Source: an uncultured Gammaproteobacteria bacterium | Lineage (GTDB): Bacteria; Pseudomonadota; Gammaproteobacteria; Arenicellales; JAANXG01 | Assembly: GCA_947259175.1 (NCBI GenBank) | Contig: CAMYKW010000054.1 | Location: forward strand, 1-44,269 | Reading direction: 5' to 3' | Length of the DNA stretch: 44,269 nt | Shown: positions 1 through 11,296 of the stretch, piece after piece | How positions within the stretch are numbered: the stretch's first letter is position 1 | Layout: the number at the start of each line of letters is the position of its first letter | The notes under the pieces: model-generated | Told to the model about the DNA's origin: nothing | The model's input: only the letters and a program-made list of their open reading frames with translations | The model's database searches: none | Position numbers and translations under genes: made by a program

Positions 1-108
1 ATCGCCGTCGACATCGGTATCCAAGCCGGTGGCCGCGTCGTTGAGGTTGTAAACGACGGTGCCGTTGGTGCTGTTCTCGGCCAGCGCGGTGGCGTCGTTG
101 TTGATTTG
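1..108 (-). repeat. Cadherin-like module repeat, copy 2 (partial)
   Basis: This stretch aligns base for base, with scattered differences, to 1819-1925. Both encode the start of a cadherin-like module (N-E-x-x-x-N-G-T-x-V-Y-N-x-N-D, then T-G-L-D-T-D). The copy runs into the window edge, so more modules are likely beyond it. Confidence 0.7.
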
Positions 109-3100
109 AGGCGGGTCATGGTCATCTATATCGATCGTTACGTTTCCATTAACGTTGCCCAGATACTGCAGAAAGAGTGTGGTGCCGGTAACAGCCGCGC
201 GGTAGTCGGAACCGAGGTTCTGGACGATGCCGTCGATTGTCAGCCTGGCTGGTAACGCGGATTCCCAGTTGCTCACTTCGAACACCGGGGCGTAACGGGG
301 TATGAACGAGCCGACCTGAAACTCGAAATTGACGTGATCGTCAGGATCGCCGTCATCCATGGTATACGCGCCGCGCTCATCCGCAAATCCGTCTCCGACC
401 AGCGATCCATCGCCGCCGGGGATGCCGAAAGTCAGGGTCGCAGGATTCAGGTAGTCGTCCTGACGTTGTTCGGTAAGCGTGGTATCGAATCCTGACGTGG
501 TGGTATCGAAGCTGTACATCACGCTCGCGCGGTAGGTGGTTCCGATGGCCGGATTGAATTTTTGAAATCGAAGGTCCATCGTTCCCGTGTCATCGTCGCT
601 GCCGCTCAGCTCCGCGGTACCGAAGTTGCTGATATTCCGCGACGTAGCATTCACAAGACCATCCGTGGCTCCGAGCTCGAACAGTCCTTGATAGGAAATC
701 GGCGTGGCGACGTTCCCCGAATTGGAAGACGGTGCTGGATCGACGGGGGTGTAGATACCGCTGTCGCTTGTAGTTCGTTGATAGACCTCGTCCATGGCGG
801 CATCGTCCCATGCCGCGTAGGTCATGAACATCCAGCGGTTACCCGGGTTGGTGGACAGTGTGATTTCCGCGTCCACCAACACACGATCTTCATACAAGTG
901 CACATTGGTGTTGACCGTCCCGTAGGAGTTCCCGGATGCCGACATCAGCGATCCGGAATACTGGATGTGTTTGGTGACGCTGTTGTCTACCAGGACGGTC
1001 GTGGTGGTGTCCGGATCCCAGTTCATCAGCAGGGAACCAATGCCATTAATCCAATAACTGCCCAGGCTCATGGTAGACAGGATGCTGGTGGTGGGGGAAC
1101 TGGTGCCTTTGAGGAACAAATCTTCCATCAGCCCCGGTGCAAGCACCGCCTTGTATGCGGCAGTTTCGTGGACCAGATCGGGGATTACGGTCAGGGTCGT
1201 AGCGGCGCTGTCATTGTTGATCAGGCCGTCACCTACGGTCGCACCGGTCACCGAACCCTGGAGCGTGTTGCCGCTGGTGGCGGTATCGGCGATGTCGTAG
1301 GTGACGAGGTACTGCACCGACGATGTGGTAACCGATTCGCTCAATCCGCCGAAGCTAGCGGTGTTGCCGACAAAGGATGCAGTGGCGATCAGGGAATCGG
1401 CGCTGTCCCACTGGTTGGCCGTCGAACCGTCGTCGCGCCATATTTTTACTCCGTTTGCGGGCACGTCATTGACCTCAGTGCCTATGAACGACACCGTCAG
1501 GTCCGTCAAAGTGTCGGACCCGGTATCGGTCTTTAGCGTGAAGCTGTCTACGCCGAACTGAAGTCCGCCACCCCACACATCTCGGTCAGCTAGGGCGGCC
1601 CCGTCCCCGATCGTCGTCGTCTCGGGGATGTCGTTTATATCGATGGTGATGTCGGCGGTATCGATGAGGCCGCCGTCCGTGGCTTCTACAGTCAAGATAT
1701 ACTGATTGGTGGTCTCGAAGTCGAGGTTGGTGTTATCCATCACGGTGATCTCACCGGTGGCGATGTTGATGCCAAAGATGCCATCGGTGTTGCCGGCGGT
1801 GATCGAATAGGTGATGGGATCGCCGTCTTGGTCGGTATCCAGGCCGGTGTTGGTGTCGTTGACGTTGTAGACCGAAGTGCCGTTGACCGCGTCTTCGTTG
1901 ACGCTGGTGGTGGCGTTGTCGATCAGCGGCGCCACGTTAGAGACGGGTTTTATCGAGACGGCACCAATGGCCCAAGCTTCGTTGACGTTGGACCAGGACA
2001 TGGTCACGGACGCTGCACCGGTCTCCACGCTGCCGGCGCCTCTCATGTCTCCTCCCCCGCTATTCCAATACTGGGTCTGCCCGGCGCCGACGCTGAGCGA
2101 ATCGGGCTTTTTTCGCGTGACCACGTCAAACACCAGCTCGCCGGAGGTGGAGCTGACGACGGTTGTGGGTGTGGAGGTATCACCTCTTTGCGATTGAAAG
2201 GCGCCGATTGGGGTGCTCTGATCGACGTTGTTGAAGGTCATTACACCGACGACGGCCAAATCCGATGCGCTCCCGGAAAATGAGACCATGACGTTGTGGG
2301 TGCCGACGTCTGGCGCCACCAGCGCCCATATCTCAACGCGAGCCTTGTCTTCTTGCTGCTCGGTCCCCAACAGGCTCAAAGCAGCACCGTTGTATGTTAT
2401 GCCGGATACTGGGAATCCCCCTCCCGCTGGGTTGCCTGATACACCAACCAGCATGAGCCGGTTGCTGCCGGAGGTGGTGTGGGAAATGCTGAGACTGGAT
2501 CCCGTGGTCTGGCCCCAAGAGGAGGCGTCGACACTGACGGTTGCCATAACCTGGGTCCAGCTCTCCTGCGTCGCGCCGGCGACGGCGACGCCGGACTCGA
2601 TCGACCCGCGCGCGTATTCCAGTGTCCAGTCAGCGCCCAAAGATGCGTGCCCGGTGGCGTCGGTGCTGGCGGCGACATCGGCGCCGGTCAGGCTGCTCAA
2701 GGCATCGACCAAGGCTTTGCCTTCATCGCGTTCCGCCAGATTACAGCCGTAAATCAGCAGATCCCCGTCGTCGTGAAAGGCCCCGCGCCAAGTTGTCAGT
2801 TCGTTTGCGTACTGTTCGATGTCGTCCGCACCTAACCAGACGTTGCCCAGTTTGACCGTGTCGCTGTTGCCGTGGGAAATGACATGCACACCCGCCAGAC
2901 CCTGAAAAGCGGACAACTGCCCGGTGATTTGCTCGATGCCGTTGCTATCGCTGTCAAGCAGGAAGATCTGGCTGTCGCCCAGCACTGCCGTGCCGTGGTT
3001 ATCGAGTTCCAGCAGCACCGGATCGGTGGCGGACGTGTCACTGGCGGCCGAGTCCGCGTCCTCGGCGGATACAGTATCCGTGCGCGTCACTGGGGAGGAG

Positions 3101-3837
3101 GTGGCGTCCGGTAGTGCCGTGGACGTGGTTTCGGTGCGAGCGGCGCCGGTGTCTCCATCGTCATCTCCGGCTCTTATTACGCTCGCCTGATCGACGATGC
3201 CCCGTAGCAACGTCTCGTAGTCGGCCACCGTAGGATCGACGAAAATCACTTCCTGAATCACGAACTCCGCCGGCACATCGGATGCCGATGCTGGCTCGTT
3301 TTCGCGGTCGCCGCCGGAGGCTGCGGGTTCGCTAATCACCACGCCGACCGTAGTATTTTCATCCAATGACAAATCGGCGGTTGGAGGCGCCTGTGCTTCG
3401 GACCTGGGGGTGGTGTCAGTTTCGGCGCCGCCGCTGGTGGAGCCGGGGGATGCCGGCGTAGCCGTGTCTACGGGGTCGACATCGACGGGTGGAGCATCGC
3501 GCGGTTCCGCGTCGCTACCGTCGGTGCCTGCTGTCTCGGCCGGTATGTCGGATGCGGGTTCCGCGCTCGGCGAGGTCGACGTGCTGTCGGCGGGTCCGTC
3601 GGTTGATGAAGCACTCGTCTGTATTGCTGCGGGCGGAGCGACGTCCTTCGGCGTCGATACCGGTGCCGGTTCGGCCTCGGCTGGGGACACCACATCAGCC
3701 TGGACGGGAGCCGGCTCCGGCTCCGTCAAGTCATCGATGACATCGATGGGCAGGTCGGCGGACAGCAACAGCCGCGGCTCGAGCTCCTCGAAGATCACCG
3801 GCAGCCGTCGGCCGTGGTGAAGTTTGTTGTACAGCAT
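1..3837 (-). CDS. Giant LEPR-XLL / DUF4347 / cadherin-like surface protein (5' part)
   Basis: The frame is open from ATG at 3837 to the window edge (1279 codons, no stop), so the gene continues to the left. An in-frame TAG lies 15 codons upstream and no better start lies between. The N-terminus contains ELEPRLLLSAD (about residues 18-28), the LEPR-XLL signature of very large exported proteins. A Pro/Ala/Ser/Thr/Asp-rich linker follows (about 30-185). A DUF4347 domain (about 190-430) has VIFVDP, a VISHGNS motif and a LIYGCNLAE motif. A beta-rich domain spans about 430-630. A cadherin-like module (about 635-740) has the pattern NTNLDFETTNQYILTVEATD. A domain I do not recognise covers about 745-1235, and a second cadherin-like module starts at about 1240. 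It is probably a surface adhesin or secreted matrix protein. The C-terminus, where RTX or anchoring repeats would be expected, is not visible. Confidence 0.9.
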   Translation of the reverse strand, partial: MLYNKLHHGRRLPVIFEELEPRLLLSADLPIDVIDDLTEPEPAPVQADVVSPAEAEPAPVSTPKDVAPPAAIQTSASSTDGPADSTSTSPSAEPASDIPAETAGTDGSDAEPRDAPPVDVDPVDTATPASPGSTSGGAETDTTPRSEAQAPPTADLSLDENTTVGVVISEPAASGGDRENEPASASDVPAEFVIQEVIFVDPTVADYETLLRGIVDQASVIRAGDDDGDTGAARTETTSTALPDATSSPVTRTDTVSAEDADSAASDTSATDPVLLELDNHGTAVLGDSQIFLLDSDSNGIEQITGQLSAFQGLAGVHVISHGNSDTVKLGNVWLGADDIEQYANELTTWRGAFHDDGDLLIYGCNLAERDEGKALVDALSSLTGADVAASTDATGHASLGADWTLEYARGSIESGVAVAGATQESWTQVMATVSVDASSWGQTTGSSLSISHTTSGSNRLMLVGVSGNPAGGGFPVSGITYNGAALSLLGTEQQEDKARVEIWALVAPDVGTHNVMVSFSGSASDLAVVGVMTFNNVDQSTPIGAFQSQRGDTSTPTTVVSSTSGELVFDVVTRKKPDSLSVGAGQTQYWNSGGGDMRGAGSVETGAASVTMSWSNVNEAWAIGAVSIKPVSNVAPLIDNATTSVNEDAVNGTSVYNVNDTNTGLDTDQDGDPITYSITAGNTDGIFGINIATGEITVMDNTNLDFETTNQYILTVEATDGGLIDTADITIDINDIPETTTIGDGAALADRDVWGGGLQFGVDSFTLKTDTGSDTLTDLTVSFIGTEVNDVPANGVKIWRDDGSTANQWDSADSLIATASFVGNTASFGGLSESVTTSSVQYLVTYDIADTATSGNTLQGSVTGATVGDGLINNDSAATTLTVIPDLVHETAAYKAVLAPGLMEDLFLKGTSSPTTSILSTMSLGSYWINGIGSLLMNWDPDTTTTVLVDNSVTKHIQYSGSLMSASGNSYGTVNTNVHLYEDRVLVDAEITLSTNPGNRWMFMTYAAWDDAAMDEVYQRTTSDSGIYTPVDPAPSSNSGNVATPISYQGLFELGATDGLVNATSRNISNFGTAELSGSDDDTGTMDLRFQKFNPAIGTTYRASVMYSFDTTTSGFDTTLTEQRQDDYLNPATLTFGIPGGDGSLVGDGFADERGAYTMDDGDPDDHVNFEFQVGSFIPRYAPVFEVSNWESALPARLTIDGIVQNLGSDYRAAVTGTTLFLQYLGNVNGNVTIDIDDHDPPQINNDATALAENSTNGTVVYNLNDAATGLDTDVDGD
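1819..1925 (-). repeat. Cadherin-like module repeat, copy 1
   Basis: Coding repeat inside the giant gene, homologous to 1-108. It encodes the N-terminal strands and the Asp-rich calcium-type motif (DTDQDGDPITYSI) of the first complete cadherin-like module. Confidence 0.7.
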
Positions 3838-4032: not shown

Positions 4033-4926
4033 TCAGGACTCGGGAATCAGGCGGTAGCGCAGCTCGGCCTCGAGGGGATCGAGCATGGCGCCTTGGGAGT
4101 CCTCGGCGAAAGAACCGGGACTGTGGAACTGGATTTTACAGCGCAAACCGCTGGTCAACCGGTAATCCGGGTTGGGCAGTTCCAGCCGGATGCGAAACGT
4201 CCCGCTGCCGGCATCCAACACCGGATCCACCGTCGTTACCGTGGATTCGAATTCCCCCCCCACGGGGAGTTCCGGGCGCACCGTGGCCCGTTGGTCGGAC
4301 TGGATGGTGCCGAACAACGCCACCGGGGCGACCACTTCCACGCGCAGCGGATCGATTTGCGCAAGCTTGACGATGGGGCGTTCCTCGACCGATTCCCCGG
4401 GATTGAGATACCGGTCCACGACCACGCCGTGGATCGGGCTACGGATGGTCTGCAGGTTGAGCACCTCAATCGCCCGATTCAATTCCAGCTCCGCGAGGCG
4501 CTTGTTATCCTTCGCCTGTTGCAGTTTGTAGCGGGCGATCTGGGTTTCAGTCTCGACGCGGTCGATGTCATGCACCGGCACCACCTTCTTGGCGTGCAGC
4601 TCCGAGATGCGGCGTTCGTTGCGCTGACCGAAGGCCACGTTGATCTCATTGGAGTGAATTTCCGCCATCATCGCGGCGCGGGCGCGGGCCCGTTCCACCG
4701 CTGCCTGTTCCACGCGGGAATCCAGTTTGGCGATCGTCTGGCCGGCGTCGACCCGGTCGCCGCGCTCCACGAACAATTGGTCGATGACCCCGTCGGCGCG
4801 GCTGCTCAGCTCCACCGTGACATTAGGTTCAATTACGCAATCGAGTTCCTGCACCTGCGCCACCGCCGGCAACGCGGGTATCAGCAGGAGCCATGCGTGA
4901 ATCTGCACAATTTCCCTTATCCCCAT
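4033..4926 (-). CDS. Small periplasmic adaptor (HlyD/RND membrane-fusion type)
   Basis: A 297-aa protein. Residues 1-23 form a signal peptide (hydrophobic LLLIPALPAVA, then Q), so it is exported to the periplasm. Residues about 39-70 (ADGVIDQLFVERGDRVDAGQ) are the first half of a lipoyl-like barrel domain. A helical hairpin with coiled-coil character covers about 71-150. The second half-motif (SPIHGVVVDRYLNPGESV) is at about 160-180, followed by a beta-barrel region. This is the architecture of membrane-fusion proteins that link inner-membrane pumps to an outer-membrane channel. It starts 18 bases after the SecA-like gene and lies 195 bases before the giant-protein gene, so it is probably part of that protein's export apparatus. 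No ABC or RND pump gene lies beside it in the window. Confidence 0.85.
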   Translation of the reverse strand: MGIREIVQIHAWLLLIPALPAVAQVQELDCVIEPNVTVELSSRADGVIDQLFVERGDRVDAGQTIAKLDSRVEQAAVERARARAAMMAEIHSNEINVAFGQRNERRISELHAKKVVPVHDIDRVETETQIARYKLQQAKDNKRLAELELNRAIEVLNLQTIRSPIHGVVVDRYLNPGESVEERPIVKLAQIDPLRVEVVAPVALFGTIQSDQRATVRPELPVGGEFESTVTTVDPVLDAGSGTFRIRLELPNPDYRLTSGLRCKIQFHSPGSFAEDSQGAMLDPLEAELRYRLIPES

Positions 4927-4944: not shown

Positions 4945-6933
4945 CTATTCCGGCGTTCCGGTGAATCCCAGCAGTCGCCTAGTTTGTTCGTCGAACTTGA
5001 CGAGGTTGCGGCGTAACCGTGCGTCGCGGATTTCCGCCACGCGTTGCGCCACGTTCATCAACCACCGACCCGGAACCGGTAAGCGCCCTGTCCTCAGATA
5101 GCTTATTGTTTTTAGTATAGTCCATGGCAGCATCGCTGAGAGCAGATCGTCCTCCACAGAGGCGATGACTTCGAAATGTCCAGGATCTCCCTGGCGCCCG
5201 CAGCGCCCGAACAATTGGCGATCGATGCGCCGCGCCTCGTTGCGCTCGGTGGCGATCACATGCAGGCCGCCGATTGCGGCGACGCCTGGACCTAAGCGGA
5301 TGTCGGTGCCGCGTCCCGCCATATTGGTAGCCACGGTAATCGCCCCCAGGATTCCCGCATTGGCGACGATTTCGGCCTCGCGATGGTCTTGGCGCGCGTT
5401 GAGTACCTGATGATCCAAGCCCGCGGCCGACAACAGCCGGCTCAGGTGTTCCGATGCTTGCACCGACCGCGTACCCAGCAGCACCGGAATTCCTTCCGCA
5501 TGCAGTTGCTGCACGCGCTTGACCACCGCGGGCCATTTGCTCGCGGCGCAGGCGTGCACTCGACCCCGCCCACGCCGGCGGCGCAGCGGACGGTGGGTAG
5601 GGATGCGCACTACTTGCAGGCCGTACAATGACCACAGCTCGCGCGCGGATTCGGCGGCGGTACCGGTCATTCCGCACAATTTGAGATAGCGGCGGAAGAA
5701 ACGTTGATAGCTGGTGCGGGCCAATGTGCGTTTACGTCGTGTGATGTCGCAACCTTCCTTGGACTCAATGAGCTGGTGTAATCCCAACTCCCAGGAATGA
5801 TCCGCCAAAATCCGGCCGGTATTGAAGTCAATGATTTCCACTTTTCCGTCCTGAAGCAGGTAGTCGCGATCCTTGTGAAAAAGGTGTAGCGCCTGCAAAG
5901 CTTGTCGAATCAATGTGTCGCGCTGCGGTTGATTGCGCCACAGTTTTGCCGAATCAGTATGCTGCGCATCTAGCCATGCCCGTCCCTTTCGCGTCAGCTC
6001 CACTTCACGGCGTTGACGATTGACGCGGAAATCGCGTTGGTTTCGTAATTGCGCCGCTATAGCCAAAACCGACGCGTAGAGTTCCGACCGCGGTGCCTCG
6101 GTCTCGGTTTGCGACAGTATGAGCGGCGTGCGCGCCTGGTCGATCAACACACTGTCGGCCTCATCGACAATGGCAAAACAAAGCCCGCGAAGCAGCAACG
6201 GCTGATGGCCGGCTTTTCCCGCGCTGAACTGTTCGAACTGCCGGTCCAAGCGGCTGCGGCGCTGTCCGGACGCCACGCGGTCGCGTAGATAATCGAACGC
6301 CACCTGCTTACTGGTGCAATAGGTGACGTTGCAGCTGTAGGCCCTGTGGTGCAGGCTTGGATCGGTGATTTTTTCGGTAACCGCACCAACTGAAAGACCC
6401 AAACGGTCGAAGATGGGGGCCATCAGTTCGGCGTCGCGCTCGACCAGATAGTCGTTGGCGGTCACGATATGCACCGGTATCCCGGCCAGGGCGGCGGCGC
6501 ACGCGGGCAGCGTGGCCGCCAGGGTCTTACCGTCCCCGGTTTCCATCTCCGCCAACATACCGTTCGACAACACCCAGCCCGCCATGATCTGGGTGTCGTA
6601 GTGTCGCATCCCCAGCGCGCGGTCCGCCGCCTCGCGAACCAGCGCAAAGGCCTGCGCCGCCAGGGTTTCCTGCAAACCCTGCTGCACGAGATGGTTGCGC
6701 AGCGCCTGCACGCGGTCGGCGAAAGCTAGGTCATCGAGGGTATGCAACCGCCGGGAGCATGCGTCGACCCGGGAGAGAAAACGCCGCGCCTGGTACAGGT
6801 TTCGGTTGCACACACGCTGTGCGAGGCCATTCGTCGCGTGTATCGCTCGGTCGATTGCGCCGCCGGGCAACGGCTCTTTTTCCGGATAGCTGCCCAGCGT
6901 GGCGCCGGGACGCAGGGTGTGGGTAGCCCGCAT
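4945..6933 (-). CDS. Short SecA-like preprotein translocase ATPase
   Basis: 662 aa, compared with about 900 for housekeeping SecA. Clear SecA motifs are: GMRHYDTQ (109-115), Walker A ETGDGKT (131-137), TANDYLVERDAE (158-169), Walker B VDEADSVLID (256-265), GMTGTA (421-426), MAGRGTDI (538-545) and the arginine-finger region GRCGRQGDPG (577-585). The catalytic motor (NBD1, preprotein cross-linking domain, NBD2) is therefore complete. The protein ends just after the segment matching the start of the SecA scaffold helix (RRNLVKFDEQTRRLLGF). The helical wing, two-helix finger and zinc-binding tail are absent. The ATG at 6933 is preceded by a GGTGA-like site. It sits between two adaptor genes, so I infer a dedicated accessory SecA for the giant protein rather than the general SecA. 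Confidence 0.9.
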   Translation of the reverse strand: MRATHTLRPGATLGSYPEKEPLPGGAIDRAIHATNGLAQRVCNRNLYQARRFLSRVDACSRRLHTLDDLAFADRVQALRNHLVQQGLQETLAAQAFALVREAADRALGMRHYDTQIMAGWVLSNGMLAEMETGDGKTLAATLPACAAALAGIPVHIVTANDYLVERDAELMAPIFDRLGLSVGAVTEKITDPSLHHRAYSCNVTYCTSKQVAFDYLRDRVASGQRRSRLDRQFEQFSAGKAGHQPLLLRGLCFAIVDEADSVLIDQARTPLILSQTETEAPRSELYASVLAIAAQLRNQRDFRVNRQRREVELTRKGRAWLDAQHTDSAKLWRNQPQRDTLIRQALQALHLFHKDRDYLLQDGKVEIIDFNTGRILADHSWELGLHQLIESKEGCDITRRKRTLARTSYQRFFRRYLKLCGMTGTAAESARELWSLYGLQVVRIPTHRPLRRRRGRGRVHACAASKWPAVVKRVQQLHAEGIPVLLGTRSVQASEHLSRLLSAAGLDHQVLNARQDHREAEIVANAGILGAITVATNMAGRGTDIRLGPGVAAIGGLHVIATERNEARRIDRQLFGRCGRQGDPGHFEVIASVEDDLLSAMLPWTILKTISYLRTGRLPVPGRWLMNVAQRVAEIRDARLRRNLVKFDEQTRRLLGFTGTPE

Positions 6934-6937
6934 TTGT

Positions 6938-7096
6938 CACCAGGATCCCGGATGCTGGCGCAGGACTCGTGCCCAGCTACTATTCTCAGCAATCCACATC
7001 AGGAATTTAGGCTGTCTCTTCATAGAATTGACGTCACGAGTCTTTCCGGTGCATGCCGGGAATAGTAGCTGGGCGCCTGGAGCGAGACCCATAGCG
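6938..7096. repeat. Dispersed repeat family, copy 1 (carries palindrome-ended unit A)
   Basis: The left edge CACCAGGATCCCGGATGCTGG and the right edge CGCCTGGAGCGAGACCCATAG recur in the same order at 23714-23785, with few mismatches. Here they enclose the 100-bp unit A. The left edge lies immediately upstream of the secA-like start. A perfect 8-bp dyad (ACCCATAG / CTATGGGT, 7087-7094 and 7099-7106) overlaps the right edge. Confidence 0.55.
6973..7072. repeat. 100-bp palindrome-ended repeat, unit A
   Basis: It begins CCAGCTACTATTC and ends with the exact complement GAATAGTAGCTGG. The inverted termini extend to 15 bp (6971-6985 with 7060-7074). Unit B at 7158-7257 has the same length and matches at about 88 of 100 positions by eye. 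The unit has no coding capacity. It could be a MITE-like element or a large RNA hairpin in the transcript between the M50 and SecA-like genes. Confidence 0.8.
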
Positions 7097-7157
7097 AGCT
7101 ATGGGTCGAGCGAAGGTCAAGCGCAGGTGTGCGAGGACCAGCCTGGGCCGGGATAGT

Positions 7158-7257
7158 CCAGCTACTATTCACAGCAATCCGCGTCAGGAATTTTCGCTGT
7201 CTCTTTACAGATTTCACGTCACGAGTCTTTCCGGTGCATAACAGGAATAGTAGCTGG
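7158..7257. repeat. 100-bp palindrome-ended repeat, unit B
   Basis: Direct repeat of unit A, starting 185 bases after it, with the same 13-bp perfect inverted termini (7158-7170 and 7245-7257). The shared sequence continues for 8 bases past the right terminus (GCGCCTGG) in both copies. It ends 21 bases before the stop codon of the M50 gene. Confidence 0.8.
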
Positions 7258-7278
7258 GCGCCTGGTGAGAAATGATGG

Positions 7279-9423
7279 CTAGACATTGAATCGCCGCAGG
7301 AAGAGTTGCCGGAAACGCCGATACCACTGCCGCGCAAGGGGTTCGCGACCGTGATCGAACAATGCGTAGACGCGCCCGCCGAGCCGGTCGATGCTCAGCG
7401 GGAGTTGCAGTTTGACCTCGAAGACTCCCTCCAGCGTGGTGACTCCTCTGGCGTCGGTGGAATCGGTCGGGAAAGGCCCCCCGCCGAGGGGGCCCAATGC
7501 CGGACTGGGCAAGTTGTTGGATGCGGCGGGCACTTGGCGGACCATTTGCGCCTCGACTACCGTGTCCAGGCGCTCGGCGAGGCGCACGTACACGGCTCGA
7601 GTTTGTCGCCGCACCAGACCGATGTCCGCCTGGGGTATGACCACACGCGCCGAGGGACGGTCCGTGTCCATCACGTATGCGACCAGATCCCCCTGTCTCA
7701 GAAACCGTCCAGGAAGGTTATCGGGTTGGTCGGCGACGAATACGCCGTCCGCGGGACTGAGCAACACCAGGGAGTCCAATTGCCCCTGCGCCGCCTCCAG
7801 GTCCGCGCGCACCACGGCGATTTCCTCTTTGACCAGTTCCGCGCGCACCTGCTCGTGTGTGCCTCTGAAGGCGTCGTAGCGGGCTTGCAGCCCGCGCAGC
7901 CGCGCCTCGAGCAACTGCACCTCGGCGTCGAGGAATTCGTCTTGGGTTTCGATCAGCGGTTGACCTTTTTTTACTCTGCGCCCGGGCGCCGAAAGCAGGC
8001 GCGTTATGACACCATCGCCGGCGGCGCGGACTTCGGACTGTTCGGGCGGCGCGATTACACCCTCGGCGATAGTGGTAAGCGGAAACGGAACCGCGAGCAG
8101 CAAACCAGCCAGCCCCAAGGGCAGCGATACGGCAACCGGTATCGCACGAAGACGCCGCCGCTGTACCCGGGGATGGGTAAACACAAACGCGAAGACTTTG
8201 ACAACGGGAATGATGAATAACGTGATGGTTGCCCATGCCGCGAGGATGACGCCGACGGCAAGGAATTTTCCCGCAACCAGCAGGATGATGGTGATCAGGA
8301 TGACGACGCGATAGACATAGGAGGCGACGCCGTAGCCGATAAACCAAGAACGCTCGCCCGGTGCCACCACCGGGGATTTGGCGTCCGGCAGGCCGAGCAG
8401 ATAACGCTGCGTGAGGTAGGCCAAGTACCCCTTGGCGCGCGTCGCCAGGTTTGGGATGGCGATGGCGTCGGCAAACACATAGTAGCCGTCGAAACGCAGC
8501 AGCGGATTGCCGTTGACGAACAGGGTCGATACCGCGCCGATGAGCATGACGTTGTAGGCGAGGGCGCTGATCACACCGGGTTCGACGTTCAACCACAGCA
8601 TCAGCGCCAGCGCCGCCAAAAACGTTTCCACCATGATGCCCGCGGCGCCGACGACGATGCGCCGGTGTTGTTCCGGAAAACCGGTGGCCGATGACGCGTC
8701 CACGTAGGGGACCGGCAGCAGCGCAATGATCACGACGCCCATTTCGTGGACTTCCCCTCCCCATACTTTGGTGGCCAGGCCGTGCCCCAACTCGTGCAGG
8801 GCCTTGACCAGGGGATACAGCAGCCACAACAGGAACAGACTTTGTGGTGCAAGCACCCGGTCTGCGATCCCTTGGGTCAATGGCTCCCAGTAGACGGCGG
8901 CCAGGCCCACCGCGGCGGCCACGACCGCCAACCAAACCAGGAATCCCGCGGCGCCGAACACCGGACGCACAAAGGGAACTAGCCGATCCAACAACCGGTC
9001 CGGGTCTATCAACGGAATGCGAACAGCCAAGGGGTTTTTCAGCGGCCGCAGCCGTCGCCTGCGGCGTAGTTGGACGCGGCGCTCGAACAGCGCCTGCATG
9101 TCTGGGGTGATATCCGACTGCAGGGCATCGGCATGGTGCAGACGCGCCAGTAGATCGATGGTTTCGTCCTGCGTAATCTCCTCATCGGGAAGTTTTTCGT
9201 TAACCAAGCTCCAAATCTGTTGCACGGAGCGCGAACCATCCATGAGACTGATGATGCGATGCGCGGCCTGGGAAACACGAAAGAAACGGCCGGAAACGGG
9301 GTTGTGCAGCACGTACCACGTCTGCCGCCGGAATCGCTGCGGCTGGATTTTTACGTGGACCGCAACGCTGGGGTGTAACCCCGATACCCGATACCACAGT
9401 GGATTTTCCAGGTGGTTATGCAC
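7279..9423 (-). CDS. PqqD-like / M50 site-2 protease / HlyD-type fusion membrane protein
   Basis: About 714 aa from GTG at 9423. This start lies 13 bases past the upstream stop and avoids a 101-base overlap that the ATG at 9537 would need. Numbering is from the GTG. Residues about 25-105 look PqqD-like (WYVLHNPVSGRFFRVS, then LMDGSRSVQQIW, then LLARLHHADAL). Multiple membrane segments follow. The zinc motif HELGH is at about 210-214, and NPLLRFDGYY at about 306-315 supplies the third ligand expected in M50 proteases. After further membrane helices, residues about 465-690 form a HlyD-type adaptor (VRAAGDGVITRLLSAPGRRVKKGQ, then SPADGVFVAD). It probably anchors an export complex in the inner membrane and may process a partner. 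Its location between a GAF-adaptor and a SecA-like gene supports a role in exporting the giant protein. Confidence 0.85.
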   Translation of the reverse strand: MHNHLENPLWYRVSGLHPSVAVHVKIQPQRFRRQTWYVLHNPVSGRFFRVSQAAHRIISLMDGSRSVQQIWSLVNEKLPDEEITQDETIDLLARLHHADALQSDITPDMQALFERRVQLRRRRRLRPLKNPLAVRIPLIDPDRLLDRLVPFVRPVFGAAGFLVWLAVVAAAVGLAAVYWEPLTQGIADRVLAPQSLFLLWLLYPLVKALHELGHGLATKVWGGEVHEMGVVIIALLPVPYVDASSATGFPEQHRRIVVGAAGIMVETFLAALALMLWLNVEPGVISALAYNVMLIGAVSTLFVNGNPLLRFDGYYVFADAIAIPNLATRAKGYLAYLTQRYLLGLPDAKSPVVAPGERSWFIGYGVASYVYRVVILITIILLVAGKFLAVGVILAAWATITLFIIPVVKVFAFVFTHPRVQRRRLRAIPVAVSLPLGLAGLLLAVPFPLTTIAEGVIAPPEQSEVRAAGDGVITRLLSAPGRRVKKGQPLIETQDEFLDAEVQLLEARLRGLQARYDAFRGTHEQVRAELVKEEIAVVRADLEAAQGQLDSLVLLSPADGVFVADQPDNLPGRFLRQGDLVAYVMDTDRPSARVVIPQADIGLVRRQTRAVYVRLAERLDTVVEAQMVRQVPAASNNLPSPALGPLGGGPFPTDSTDARGVTTLEGVFEVKLQLPLSIDRLGGRVYALFDHGREPLARQWYRRFRQLFLRRFNV

Positions 9424-9436
9424 CGCGCGCGCCCCG

Positions 9437-11296
9437 TTAATGCCACCAGGACCACAGCGACAACCGCAGCCAGTCAACGATGCCGTGGGTCCAGAGCCAG
9501 AGACGCCGCCGCTGTCCAGCTTCAATTTTTCCCACACCGCGCATGCCGGGTCTCAGCAGGGGACCGCTGGCGTCCAGGCGGGCCTCGACGCGGAAGAAGT
9601 TGCGGCCTTCGACGGCGGTTGAAATCGGGGTGACACGCTCCACCGTGAATTGATGCACCTCGTTGGGCAGACCCGCCAGAATCAAGCGGCCTGTTTGCCT
9701 TGGACGCACCGCGGCGATTTCACGCTCGTCCACGTTGAGAATGATGCGATAGGAATTGAGCGGGGCCACTTCGAACAACACCTGCCCCCGCTGCACCGGA
9801 GCACCCAGAGACTGGCTGTGGTCGCCGCTGACGACGACGCCATCAATTGGCGCGGTGACCCGGGTGCGGCCGAGTTTTTCCTCTACCAGCGCGAGTTGCG
9901 CATCGGCCTGATCGAGCTTGGCCTTGAGCACGCTGATGCGGGAACGGTCATGGGTAGCCAAGGCTTCGCGGTATTCCTTGACCAGTTTGGCCCGCTCCCC
10001 GGACAGGCTGGTGCGTTCCAGTCTAAGCTCACGGTCCTCCAGCCGACTCATGACCTGTCCCGCGCGCACCACGTCGCCGGCGCGCGCCGGGGCCTCGGCC
10101 AGATAGCCGTCGAAAGGAGCAATGACAACGCGTTGCACTGTGCCTTGCAGATGGGCTTTGCCGTCCACGCGATAGGTGCTGTTGCCCATGGAAAAGATCG
10201 TCAACGACGTTGCGGCGAGCAGCGCCGCAAGGATCTTCCAGGTCCTTGCCCGATTGCCGCGCAGCGCCGTCCAACGGGTTCTTATCGCGGTGATGATTTT
10301 CACCGCCAGCGATTGCTGGTCCCTGCGCTTCAGATCCAGGATGGGACCGACCAGGGATGCCGTGTATTCGCACAGGCTGACGGTGTCGGCGTCGAACGGC
10401 TGCGCGCGAGTTTGTTCCAGTACAATAGCGCCGACGATGTGCCCATCATGATTCATGGGCACGGTACAGATGGCGCCGGCGCCGTACTCGCGGGCCAAGC
10501 TGGCGTGGGACGTGGTCAGGGGAGCGGTGCCGTCCGCAACTGGTGGATACAGGATACTGGCGTCCTGTTCCACGGCTTCTCTGACCGTGTTGGCGAGCGC
10601 ACGCACCAAGTTGGTTTTATCTTCGATCTGCAGCGTCTGGGAAATCGCTTCGATTTCCACATGATGGCCGCGGGTGAATCCAATACTGACACGGTCGCAG
10701 CCGAGGCGATGGGTTAGCTCGGTGGATACCGCCATCGTTGCTGAACGATAGTCACTTTGACCGAGGCTCTTCGCGAGGACGTCGACGACGGCGAGCAGGC
10801 GTTGTTCCAGCGGGTTGGCGTCATGGGTCATCAACATCTCGAGCCATGCCGCGCCCCACTGCAAGACACGAATCGCGGCGCGTTGGCCGCTGACCGGGCG
10901 GCTGGTGATTTCGACCGCCACCGCGCCGCTGATGGGATGTTTGAGCAGCAAGGGGCAGGCGACGATGTTGTATGAGTGTTCGTCCAGCTGGGTATTCGAC
11001 TCGGCGTTGAGCCGCGGCTGCCGCTCCCGGAGGGCTTGTTGCGCGGCGTTGATCAGCGACGAGTCGGGATCGGCGCCGTCGGGCCACAACGCCACCGCAT
11101 TGCAGGTGCCGGAGACGGAGTTGGAGGCACCCAGCACGACCATCGCCCGCTTGACGCCTGACAGCATGCTGCACTGCAGGCTCAACCAGGTACGTGTGAG
11201 CTCATAGACGTAGCCCGTCGCCAGTGTCGATCCACTGGCGCCTGGCGGGTCGGCGGGCTCTGCCGCTTGTTTGTATTGATTCGTAGAAGACTCCAA
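9437..11296 (-). CDS. GAF-like sensor / HlyD-type membrane-fusion hybrid
   Basis: 619 aa. The annotated start is TTG at 11296. An in-frame TGA lies just upstream, no ATG lies near, and a GGGGA stretch precedes it at about 9 bases, so the start is uncertain. Residues about 30-155 and 165-320 look like two GAF-type folds; the second has RLGCDRVSIGF, AICTVPM and GAIVLEQ. A single membrane helix lies at about 353-370. The periplasmic part (about 372-600) is a HlyD-type adaptor with IAPFDGYLAEAPARAGDVVRAGQ, a coiled-coil hairpin and TAPIDGVVVSGDHSQSLGAPV. The arrangement puts a cytoplasmic ligand-sensing module on a membrane-fusion protein. It is the first gene of the minus-strand cluster and may gate the export machinery. 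The GAF assignment is by pattern only. Confidence 0.82.
   Translation of the reverse strand: MESSTNQYKQAAEPADPPGASGSTLATGYVYELTRTWLSLQCSMLSGVKRAMVVLGASNSVSGTCNAVALWPDGADPDSSLINAAQQALRERQPRLNAESNTQLDEHSYNIVACPLLLKHPISGAVAVEITSRPVSGQRAAIRVLQWGAAWLEMLMTHDANPLEQRLLAVVDVLAKSLGQSDYRSATMAVSTELTHRLGCDRVSIGFTRGHHVEIEAISQTLQIEDKTNLVRALANTVREAVEQDASILYPPVADGTAPLTTSHASLAREYGAGAICTVPMNHDGHIVGAIVLEQTRAQPFDADTVSLCEYTASLVGPILDLKRRDQQSLAVKIITAIRTRWTALRGNRARTWKILAALLAATSLTIFSMGNSTYRVDGKAHLQGTVQRVVIAPFDGYLAEAPARAGDVVRAGQVMSRLEDRELRLERTSLSGERAKLVKEYREALATHDRSRISVLKAKLDQADAQLALVEEKLGRTRVTAPIDGVVVSGDHSQSLGAPVQRGQVLFEVAPLNSYRIILNVDEREIAAVRPRQTGRLILAGLPNEVHQFTVERVTPISTAVEGRNFFRVEARLDASGPLLRPGMRGVGKIEAGQRRRLWLWTHGIVDWLRLSLWSWWH

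Follow-up and report, generated by a model that had tools for sequence, protein, structure and literature searches.

The closest described relative of the locus analysed here is a module of SecA_DEAD, M50-HlyD and GAF-HlyD genes, for which Kamneva, Poudel and Ward proposed a secretion function (Kamneva et al., 2015; PMC4452313). In the accessible text of that paper, pore formation by the M50 part was suggested and the broader biological role of the module was left as "completely unknown"; PqqD and LEPR are absent from this text, and its sections on the module name no substrate. Kamneva et al. place the module in Methylobacterium extorquens AM1 as META1p2399-2402. Another M50 protease, EpeP, is thought to both cleave and export an epipeptide, according to the accessible part of the source (PMC10885120). 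A 2025 paper on RiPP recognition elements (RREs) reports RREs fused to many other domains, and the terms M50 and HlyD are absent from its accessible text (PMC12710340), while the accessible part of a review of type I secretion systems (T1SS) mentions nothing on the module (PMC8277102). The LEPR-XLL motif has been reported, in a source accessible in part, in a Vibrio giant protein of about 8000 residues. The literature searched (mostly without subscription journals, and in part as incomplete texts) revealed no function for this motif, and the same literature contained no publication joining PqqD with M50 and HlyD, or the module with LEPR-XLL.

The window, i.e., the whole 44,269-nucleotide stretch of DNA that was analysed, carries the same gene set as the module in the accessible text of Kamneva et al. 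(GAF-HlyD, M50-HlyD, SecA_DEAD and HlyD together). The GAF-HlyD gene lies upstream of a gene encoding a PqqD-M50-HlyD fusion protein, and the genes for a SecA-like ATPase, a short HlyD-type adaptor and an LEPR-XLL protein follow downstream (Table 1).

Table 1. Features of the module in the window (positions are those of the whole stretch).
Feature	Position	Strand	Details
GAF-HlyD protein, first gene of the module	9437..11296	-	open-frame extent
PqqD-M50-HlyD fusion gene	7279..9423	-	714 aa; GTG start at 9423, stop 7279-7281
PqqD/RRE-type domain (predicted)	9133..9351	-	residues 25-97; three strands and three helices
M50 membrane protease core	8089..9003	-	residues 141-445
HELGH zinc site	8782..8796	-	residues 210-214
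NPLLRFDG, presumed third zinc ligand D312	8485..8508	-	residues 306-313
Periplasmic adaptor (HlyD/MexA-like)	7282..8088	-	residues 446-714
SecA-like ATPase	4945..6933	-	662 aa; METGDGKT and VDEAD
Short HlyD/RND-type adaptor gene	4033..4926	-	
LEPR-XLL protein	1..3837	-	runs off the contig start; DUF4347 and cadherin domains
LEPR-XLL motif FEELEPRLLLSAD, putative secretion signal	3751..3795	-	residues 15-29

The earlier note on this DNA, made from the letters alone, had placed the fusion gene at these coordinates, which are right; the strand is minus. The GTG codon at 9423 is a likelier start than that of a longer open frame reaching 9537, because conservation among homologues begins at about residue 8. 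The three-part chain proposed in the note (a PqqD-like part, an M50 protease and a HlyD-type adaptor) is real, as judged from profiles, models and the conserved metal site. The residues of the zinc site that had been read in HELGH and NPLLRFDG (H210, E211, H214 and D312) are identical in all 32 aligned proteins, the window protein among them, and the presence in each of both HExxH and the second metal-site aspartate indicates M50 membership. With the Pfam M50 profile (cut-off 27.2 bits), the window protein scored 21.8 bits and its paralogue on contig C20 of the same genome 28.2 bits. The adaptor part scored 36.8 bits with HlyD_3 (cut-off 22.2) and matched MexA and MacA in Foldseek with E-values down to 3.5e-11. 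Basic stretches are located ahead of the first strongly hydrophobic segment and of the final one before the adaptor, a placement that would agree with the N-terminus being cytoplasmic and the HlyD part periplasmic.

For the N-terminal part, the PqqD profile PF05402 gave E = 1.1e-4 and 22.9 bits with the whole open frame, just below the 23.4-bit cut-off, and E = 6.4e-6 and 26.9 bits, above the cut-off, with residues 1-105 alone. The same profile was matched at E <= 0.01 by 65 of 71 domains of the family (that of the window included), and the best PDB sequence for a profile built from these 71 domains was PqqD 3g2b (E = 2.3e-4). The AlphaFold2 model of the domain (pLDDT 89.9) has strands at residues 25-31, 34-41 and 46-50 and helices at 52-59, 67-77 and 85-97, the same as in the full-length model. 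In Foldseek, the top six rows obtained with the domain were TbiB1 with leader peptide, PqqD 5sxy and lasso B1 with leader peptide (E-values of 2.9e-3 to 1.4e-2, none <= 0.001). VIA structural comparison with PqqD 5sxy gave Z 8.8 and an rmsd of 2.6 over 87 residues, and other winged-helix-like folds, such as GdmN (Z 10.4), MINA53 and PKMT2, scored equally high. Because the Foldseek E-values are modest and these other folds are similar in VIA, it is the sequence evidence that carries the assignment of a predicted PqqD/RRE fold to residues 25-97. A profile and structure search of the N-terminus against PqqD had been put forward beforehand as a check, and its outcome is positive, with PF05402 and 3g2b matched and RRE/PqqD structures first in Foldseek. 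With PqqD and the RiPP recognition elements (PF05402), the window protein has in common the predicted fold, the sequence profile and the fusion to a processing enzyme; their ligand is a short RiPP leader, whereas the likely ligand of the window protein is the N-terminus of a giant protein.

The SecA-like protein of the window has an intact Walker A motif. The LEPR-XLL N-terminus that the earlier note had seen on the protein encoded at 3837 and below was recovered by NF012209 at residues 15-29, with 22.5 bits against a cut-off of 17. While this protein is over the NF012209 cut-off, matches to PF07595 (Planctomycete extracellular motif) are weak. PF07595 is the sole Pfam family listed for two LEPR N-termini, that of the window protein (3751-3795; E = 0.15, 12.3 bits) and that of the C20 giant (L008:7310-8800; E = 0.0055, 16.8 bits), both below the cut-off of 25.5.

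Contig C20 carries a second module, whose fusion protein is 45% identical to that of the window. The C20 giant is a 13,078-residue open frame (L008:7310 to L009:4540) that bears LEPR-XLL close to the N-terminus and RTX repeats towards the end; it also contains a proprotein-convertase P-domain and matches matrixin weakly, and a TolC-family gene lies ahead of it. The SecA-like protein of this contig (L009:17212-19137) has, by inspection, lost its Walker A motif. A tryptophan-halogenase-like gene (L009:5888-7507) lies in the interval that separates giant and module. A third, distant copy (26%) on contig C47 is grouped with a TolC-family gene and two HlyD genes, and a SecA-like frame was not found in the C47 stretches examined. 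Between the M50 and SecA-like genes of the window (6971-7270), there is a 113-base direct repeat, 88% alike, with the palindrome CCAGCTACTATTC. A single copy of this word is also present in each of three other stretches of this genome, L009, L010 and L183; because the L010 and L183 copies are near contig ends, the word may represent a dispersed repeat at which the assembly breaks.

RTX repeats usually mark the cargo of ABC-type T1SS. Those near the end of the C20 giant, with the TolC-family gene beside it, would suit an arrangement in which the giants use a C-terminal RTX signal to leave the cell through an ordinary ABC-type T1SS, and LEPR-XLL and the fusion protein serve retention, surface release or quality control. 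This is improbable, since a motif scan with flanks of up to 10 kb detected a candidate ABC transporter of T1SS size (or nearly so) at only two of 80 module loci (L078 and L082) and none in the window. The locus does share with type I secretion systems the HlyD-type adaptor and, at the C20 giant, the TolC-family gene and RTX repeats; it differs from them in that the motif scan found no ABC transporter in the window module and in that the conserved signal is N-terminal.

A pattern scan of 84,980 species genomes yielded at least 571 relatives. The analysis used the best 80 loci, and this restriction biases the set towards close homologues. Around most of these best 80 of at least 571 loci, the GAF-HlyD and SecA-like genes and other module genes recur, the records concerned carrying titles or labels of Proteobacteria, Desulfobacterota, Myxococcota, Nitrospirota, Omnitrophota and Rokubacteria. 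Judged by motif, the SecA gene of the best 80 loci is intact at 68, without Walker A at four, cut by a contig end at one and off the contig at two, and the motif search did not find it at the remaining five. Because of these five loci and the four lacking Walker A, a motor role of SecA would not be universal. The 13 matches in plasmid records all come from Alphaproteobacteria, judging from genus names. Some of these plasmid-borne relatives are annotated as PqqD family proteins, and relatives of the fusion protein already bear PqqD family or M50 annotations. Among the 14 genomes of the small phylum around G281, the protein occurs in G281 only, and LEPR in G281 and one other genome.

LEPR-XLL (NF012209) was found in 16 of the 22 genomes with a close homologue of the fusion protein and in 8 of the 637 without one (p = 1e-21, treating genomes as independent), the limit for a close homologue having been fixed after the scores were seen (E < 1e-100 with P0001, where the next score is 1.7e-74, or >700 bits with the profile). 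These genomes are random samples, with the three seed genomes left out, of three groups: (i) the class of the window (274 genomes), (ii) the class of G297, a Bradyrhizobium (190 genomes), which serves as background only because it has no close homologue beyond its seed, and (iii) the phylum of G300, a Desulfoluna (198 genomes). One genome with 472 bits and no LEPR (G629) was counted as being without a close homologue because it is below the 700-bit limit. Within the 274 genomes of the window's class, LEPR-XLL is present in 15 of 21 with a close homologue vs. 4 of 253 others; NF012209 was not found in 6 of the 20 close-homologue genomes in the sample of this class. Half of the eight genomes with LEPR and no close homologue (G177, G224, G385 and G626) carry a more distant relative.

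Linkage points in the same direction. LEPR-XLL occurs in 42 of the 49 module-bearing genomes covered for 50 module loci; NF012209 was not found in the other seven, one of which (L079) has a variant motif beside the module. The module genomes contain 55 LEPR matches, of which 40 are on the contig of the matched gene and 15 on other contigs, some in fragmented genomes. In 38 of the 40 same-contig pairs the gene is within 10 kb of the nearest edge of the giant, and in 37 both are on the same strand (giant upstream in 26, downstream in 11); this count leaves out three weak partial matches, uses giant ends estimated from stop-to-stop open frames and includes one copy (G307, contig C44) belonging to clade II, the sister clade described below. 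For the 16 contigs of at least 187 kb holding both, the combined p-value of chance nearness is 9e-10.

M50 enzymes (site-2 proteases) commonly act in regulated intramembrane proteolysis. With a GAF domain encoded in the adjoining gene, the locus might specify such a system, the GAF-HlyD partner sensing a signal and the M50 site cutting a regulator; this is very unlikely, because the conserved linkage is with giant proteins, and three adaptor-domain proteins and a SecA-like gene in one module point to export. The size of the linked proteins bears on another alternative. The open frames bearing the linked N-terminal signals have a median of 7486 residues, which argues against the protein being part of a RiPP pathway, as the daptide or epipeptide proteases are; despite matches to the daptide protease NF041824 (E = 5e-45) and to LiaK/YydH (E = 3e-5), such a role has scarcely any probability. 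The M50 core is common to the window protein and these proteases (NF041824, NF058609; EpeP), and the NF041824 match spans the PqqD-like part too, but the window protein is below both curated cut-offs, carries a HlyD adaptor and adjoins giant-protein genes. RiPP membership was rejected on an NF041824 score of 154 bits vs. an equivalog cut-off of 300.

Motifs were collected from 60 of 61 LEPR loci (L164 yielded none), a few of them from genomes without a close homologue (e.g., L053, L055, L056 and L057). In a separate search around the modules, L088, L098 and L115 were set aside as not being LEPR motifs. In most of the 60, a segment with many basic residues is followed by [FL]-E-x-L-E-P-R-x-L-L-S-A-D, and 56 have no 15-residue stretch with a mean hydropathy >1.6, which suggests that these signals differ from a classical signal peptide. 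The sister clade of the fusion protein (clade II) goes with giants bearing LEPRxMFDAA instead of LEPRxLLSAD. One pattern was applied to both clades, covering the 80 clade I loci (best of at least 571) together with 40 stretches taken from 25 genomes that carry distant relatives. It identified the [SA]A type at 14 clade I loci and the D[AG] type (e.g., ALEPRxMFDAA and LEPRxLFDGA) in 11 of the 25 genomes, so that motif type follows receptor clade (14:0 vs. 0:11); in this count L111, a clade I match, is set aside as not LEPR-like, L215 is assigned to clade II with its M50-HlyD gene (L220) on another contig, L215, L201 and L202 were chosen where NF012209 had matched, and G497 and G368 are near-identical rows. 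All of the motifs lie within the first 200 residues and no types are crossed; no internal motif was found in 785,167 (clade I loci) and 284,279 (distant relatives) residues, 1.07 million in total. That most loci have no motif within reach is expected wherever the giant starts outside the flank. Long open frames starting with a variant motif such as LEPRxMFDAA or LEPRxLFDGA adjoin the clade II M50-HlyD genes in L187, L188, L190, L192, L199, L201, L202, L210, L213 and L219, and NF012209 reports this variant in only a few of those genomes.

In a tree of the M50-HlyD part built without the PqqD domain, the two motif sets split on a 100/100 branch, G060 and G177 being divergent motif-less rows on the clade I side. 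The PqqD-like part of clade II is homologous to that of clade I (profile comparison probability 92%, E = 6.9e-7), and Pfam PqqD matches 2 of 12 clade II domains at E <= 1. Five residues of the PqqD part (W10, R32, W36, W71 and Q85) are conserved in 19 to 22 of 22 clade I proteins and rare in clade II. With the SecA profile, 20 of the 21 clade II genomes in the tree gave no match in their stretches and the remaining one gave a weak match of 18 bits (L186, G162); a strong match (259 bits, L204) was obtained solely in G060, which falls outside clade II. Motif types matched to clades would be expected of a receptor with its signal, and they suggest such a pair without singling out the contacting domain.

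A mirror-distance test with 44 pairs detected no PqqD-specific coevolution (partial r 0.001, p 0.46). LEPR peptide distances showed correlation with all parts of the protein (r 0.20-0.29), and a partial p <0.05 was reached only for the end of the M50 core. Of the hypothesis in the earlier note that the PqqD-like part binds the LEPR-XLL N-terminus, the partnership of the two proteins is supported by co-occurrence, linkage and the motif subtype following the clade; the coevolution test lent nothing to the PqqD-like part specifically. This negative test, and the structural scores of several non-RRE winged-helix-like folds, would agree with a module that exports the LEPR-XLL giants with the SecA-like or another HlyD subunit reading the motif and the PqqD-like domain docking a partner protein. 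We regard that division of labour as rather unlikely, as LEPR giants also adjoin modules in which no SecA gene was found (L084, L085, L113 and L118), and motif subtype goes with the clade to which the PqqD-M50-HlyD protein belongs, clade II having no clear SecA-like gene nearby.

In the reading that we favour, and consider moderately probable, the PqqD-M50-HlyD protein resides in the inner membrane, where it serves an ABC-less, type-I-like system that secretes giant proteins, both as receptor for their signal and as processing subunit; it probably reads a shared N-terminal tag and helps to send the giants out of the cell. The sequences show the domain architecture, preservation of the catalytic residues, a module that is conserved, LEPR-XLL giants that co-occur with it and are linked to it, and motif subtypes that follow the receptor clade; from these we infer peptide binding, cleavage, conduit assembly and the energy source. 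The cytoplasmic PqqD/RRE domain would capture the N-terminal LEPR-XLL signal of the giant and hand the chain to the fused M50 site, with a putative cut at or near the signal. The C-terminal HlyD part, GAF-HlyD and the short HlyD protein (plus TolC) would form a periplasmic conduit. The SecA-like ATPase would be the probable motor where intact, and housekeeping SecA where it is missing or dead. In our own judgement, recognition of the LEPR signal by the fusion protein is rather likely, cleavage of the signal may occur although we lean somewhat against it, and a pore formed by the M50 part is unlikely. The phrase "recognition, cleavage and export by one chain", used in the earlier note, is too strong, as the module has two further HlyD proteins and usually a SecA-like one, and a TolC-family gene lies by the C20 giant.

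The module itself and its proposed secretion role were already known (accessible text of Kamneva et al., 2015; PMC4452313); as far as the literature searched can tell, the pairing of the module with LEPR-XLL giants and the clade-matched signal types are new. More tentatively, and at just under an even chance, the module may represent a distinct class of bacterial secretion, in which a fusion of an RRE, an intramembrane protease and an adaptor replaces the gatekeeper of the ABC transporter and reads a conserved N-terminal signal on proteins of thousands of residues. It would comprise two clades with two signals, LEPRxLLSAD and, in the clade seemingly without a dedicated SecA, LEPRxMFDAA, and the PF07595 motif of Planctomycetes, to which no route has been assigned to our knowledge, may be served by it too. 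Pairing the module with LEPR-XLL makes both testable. If true, it would place the leader-reading fold of RiPP pathways in the secretion of megadalton-sized proteins, and cargo, and receptor clade as well, would be predictable from a short N-terminal motif.
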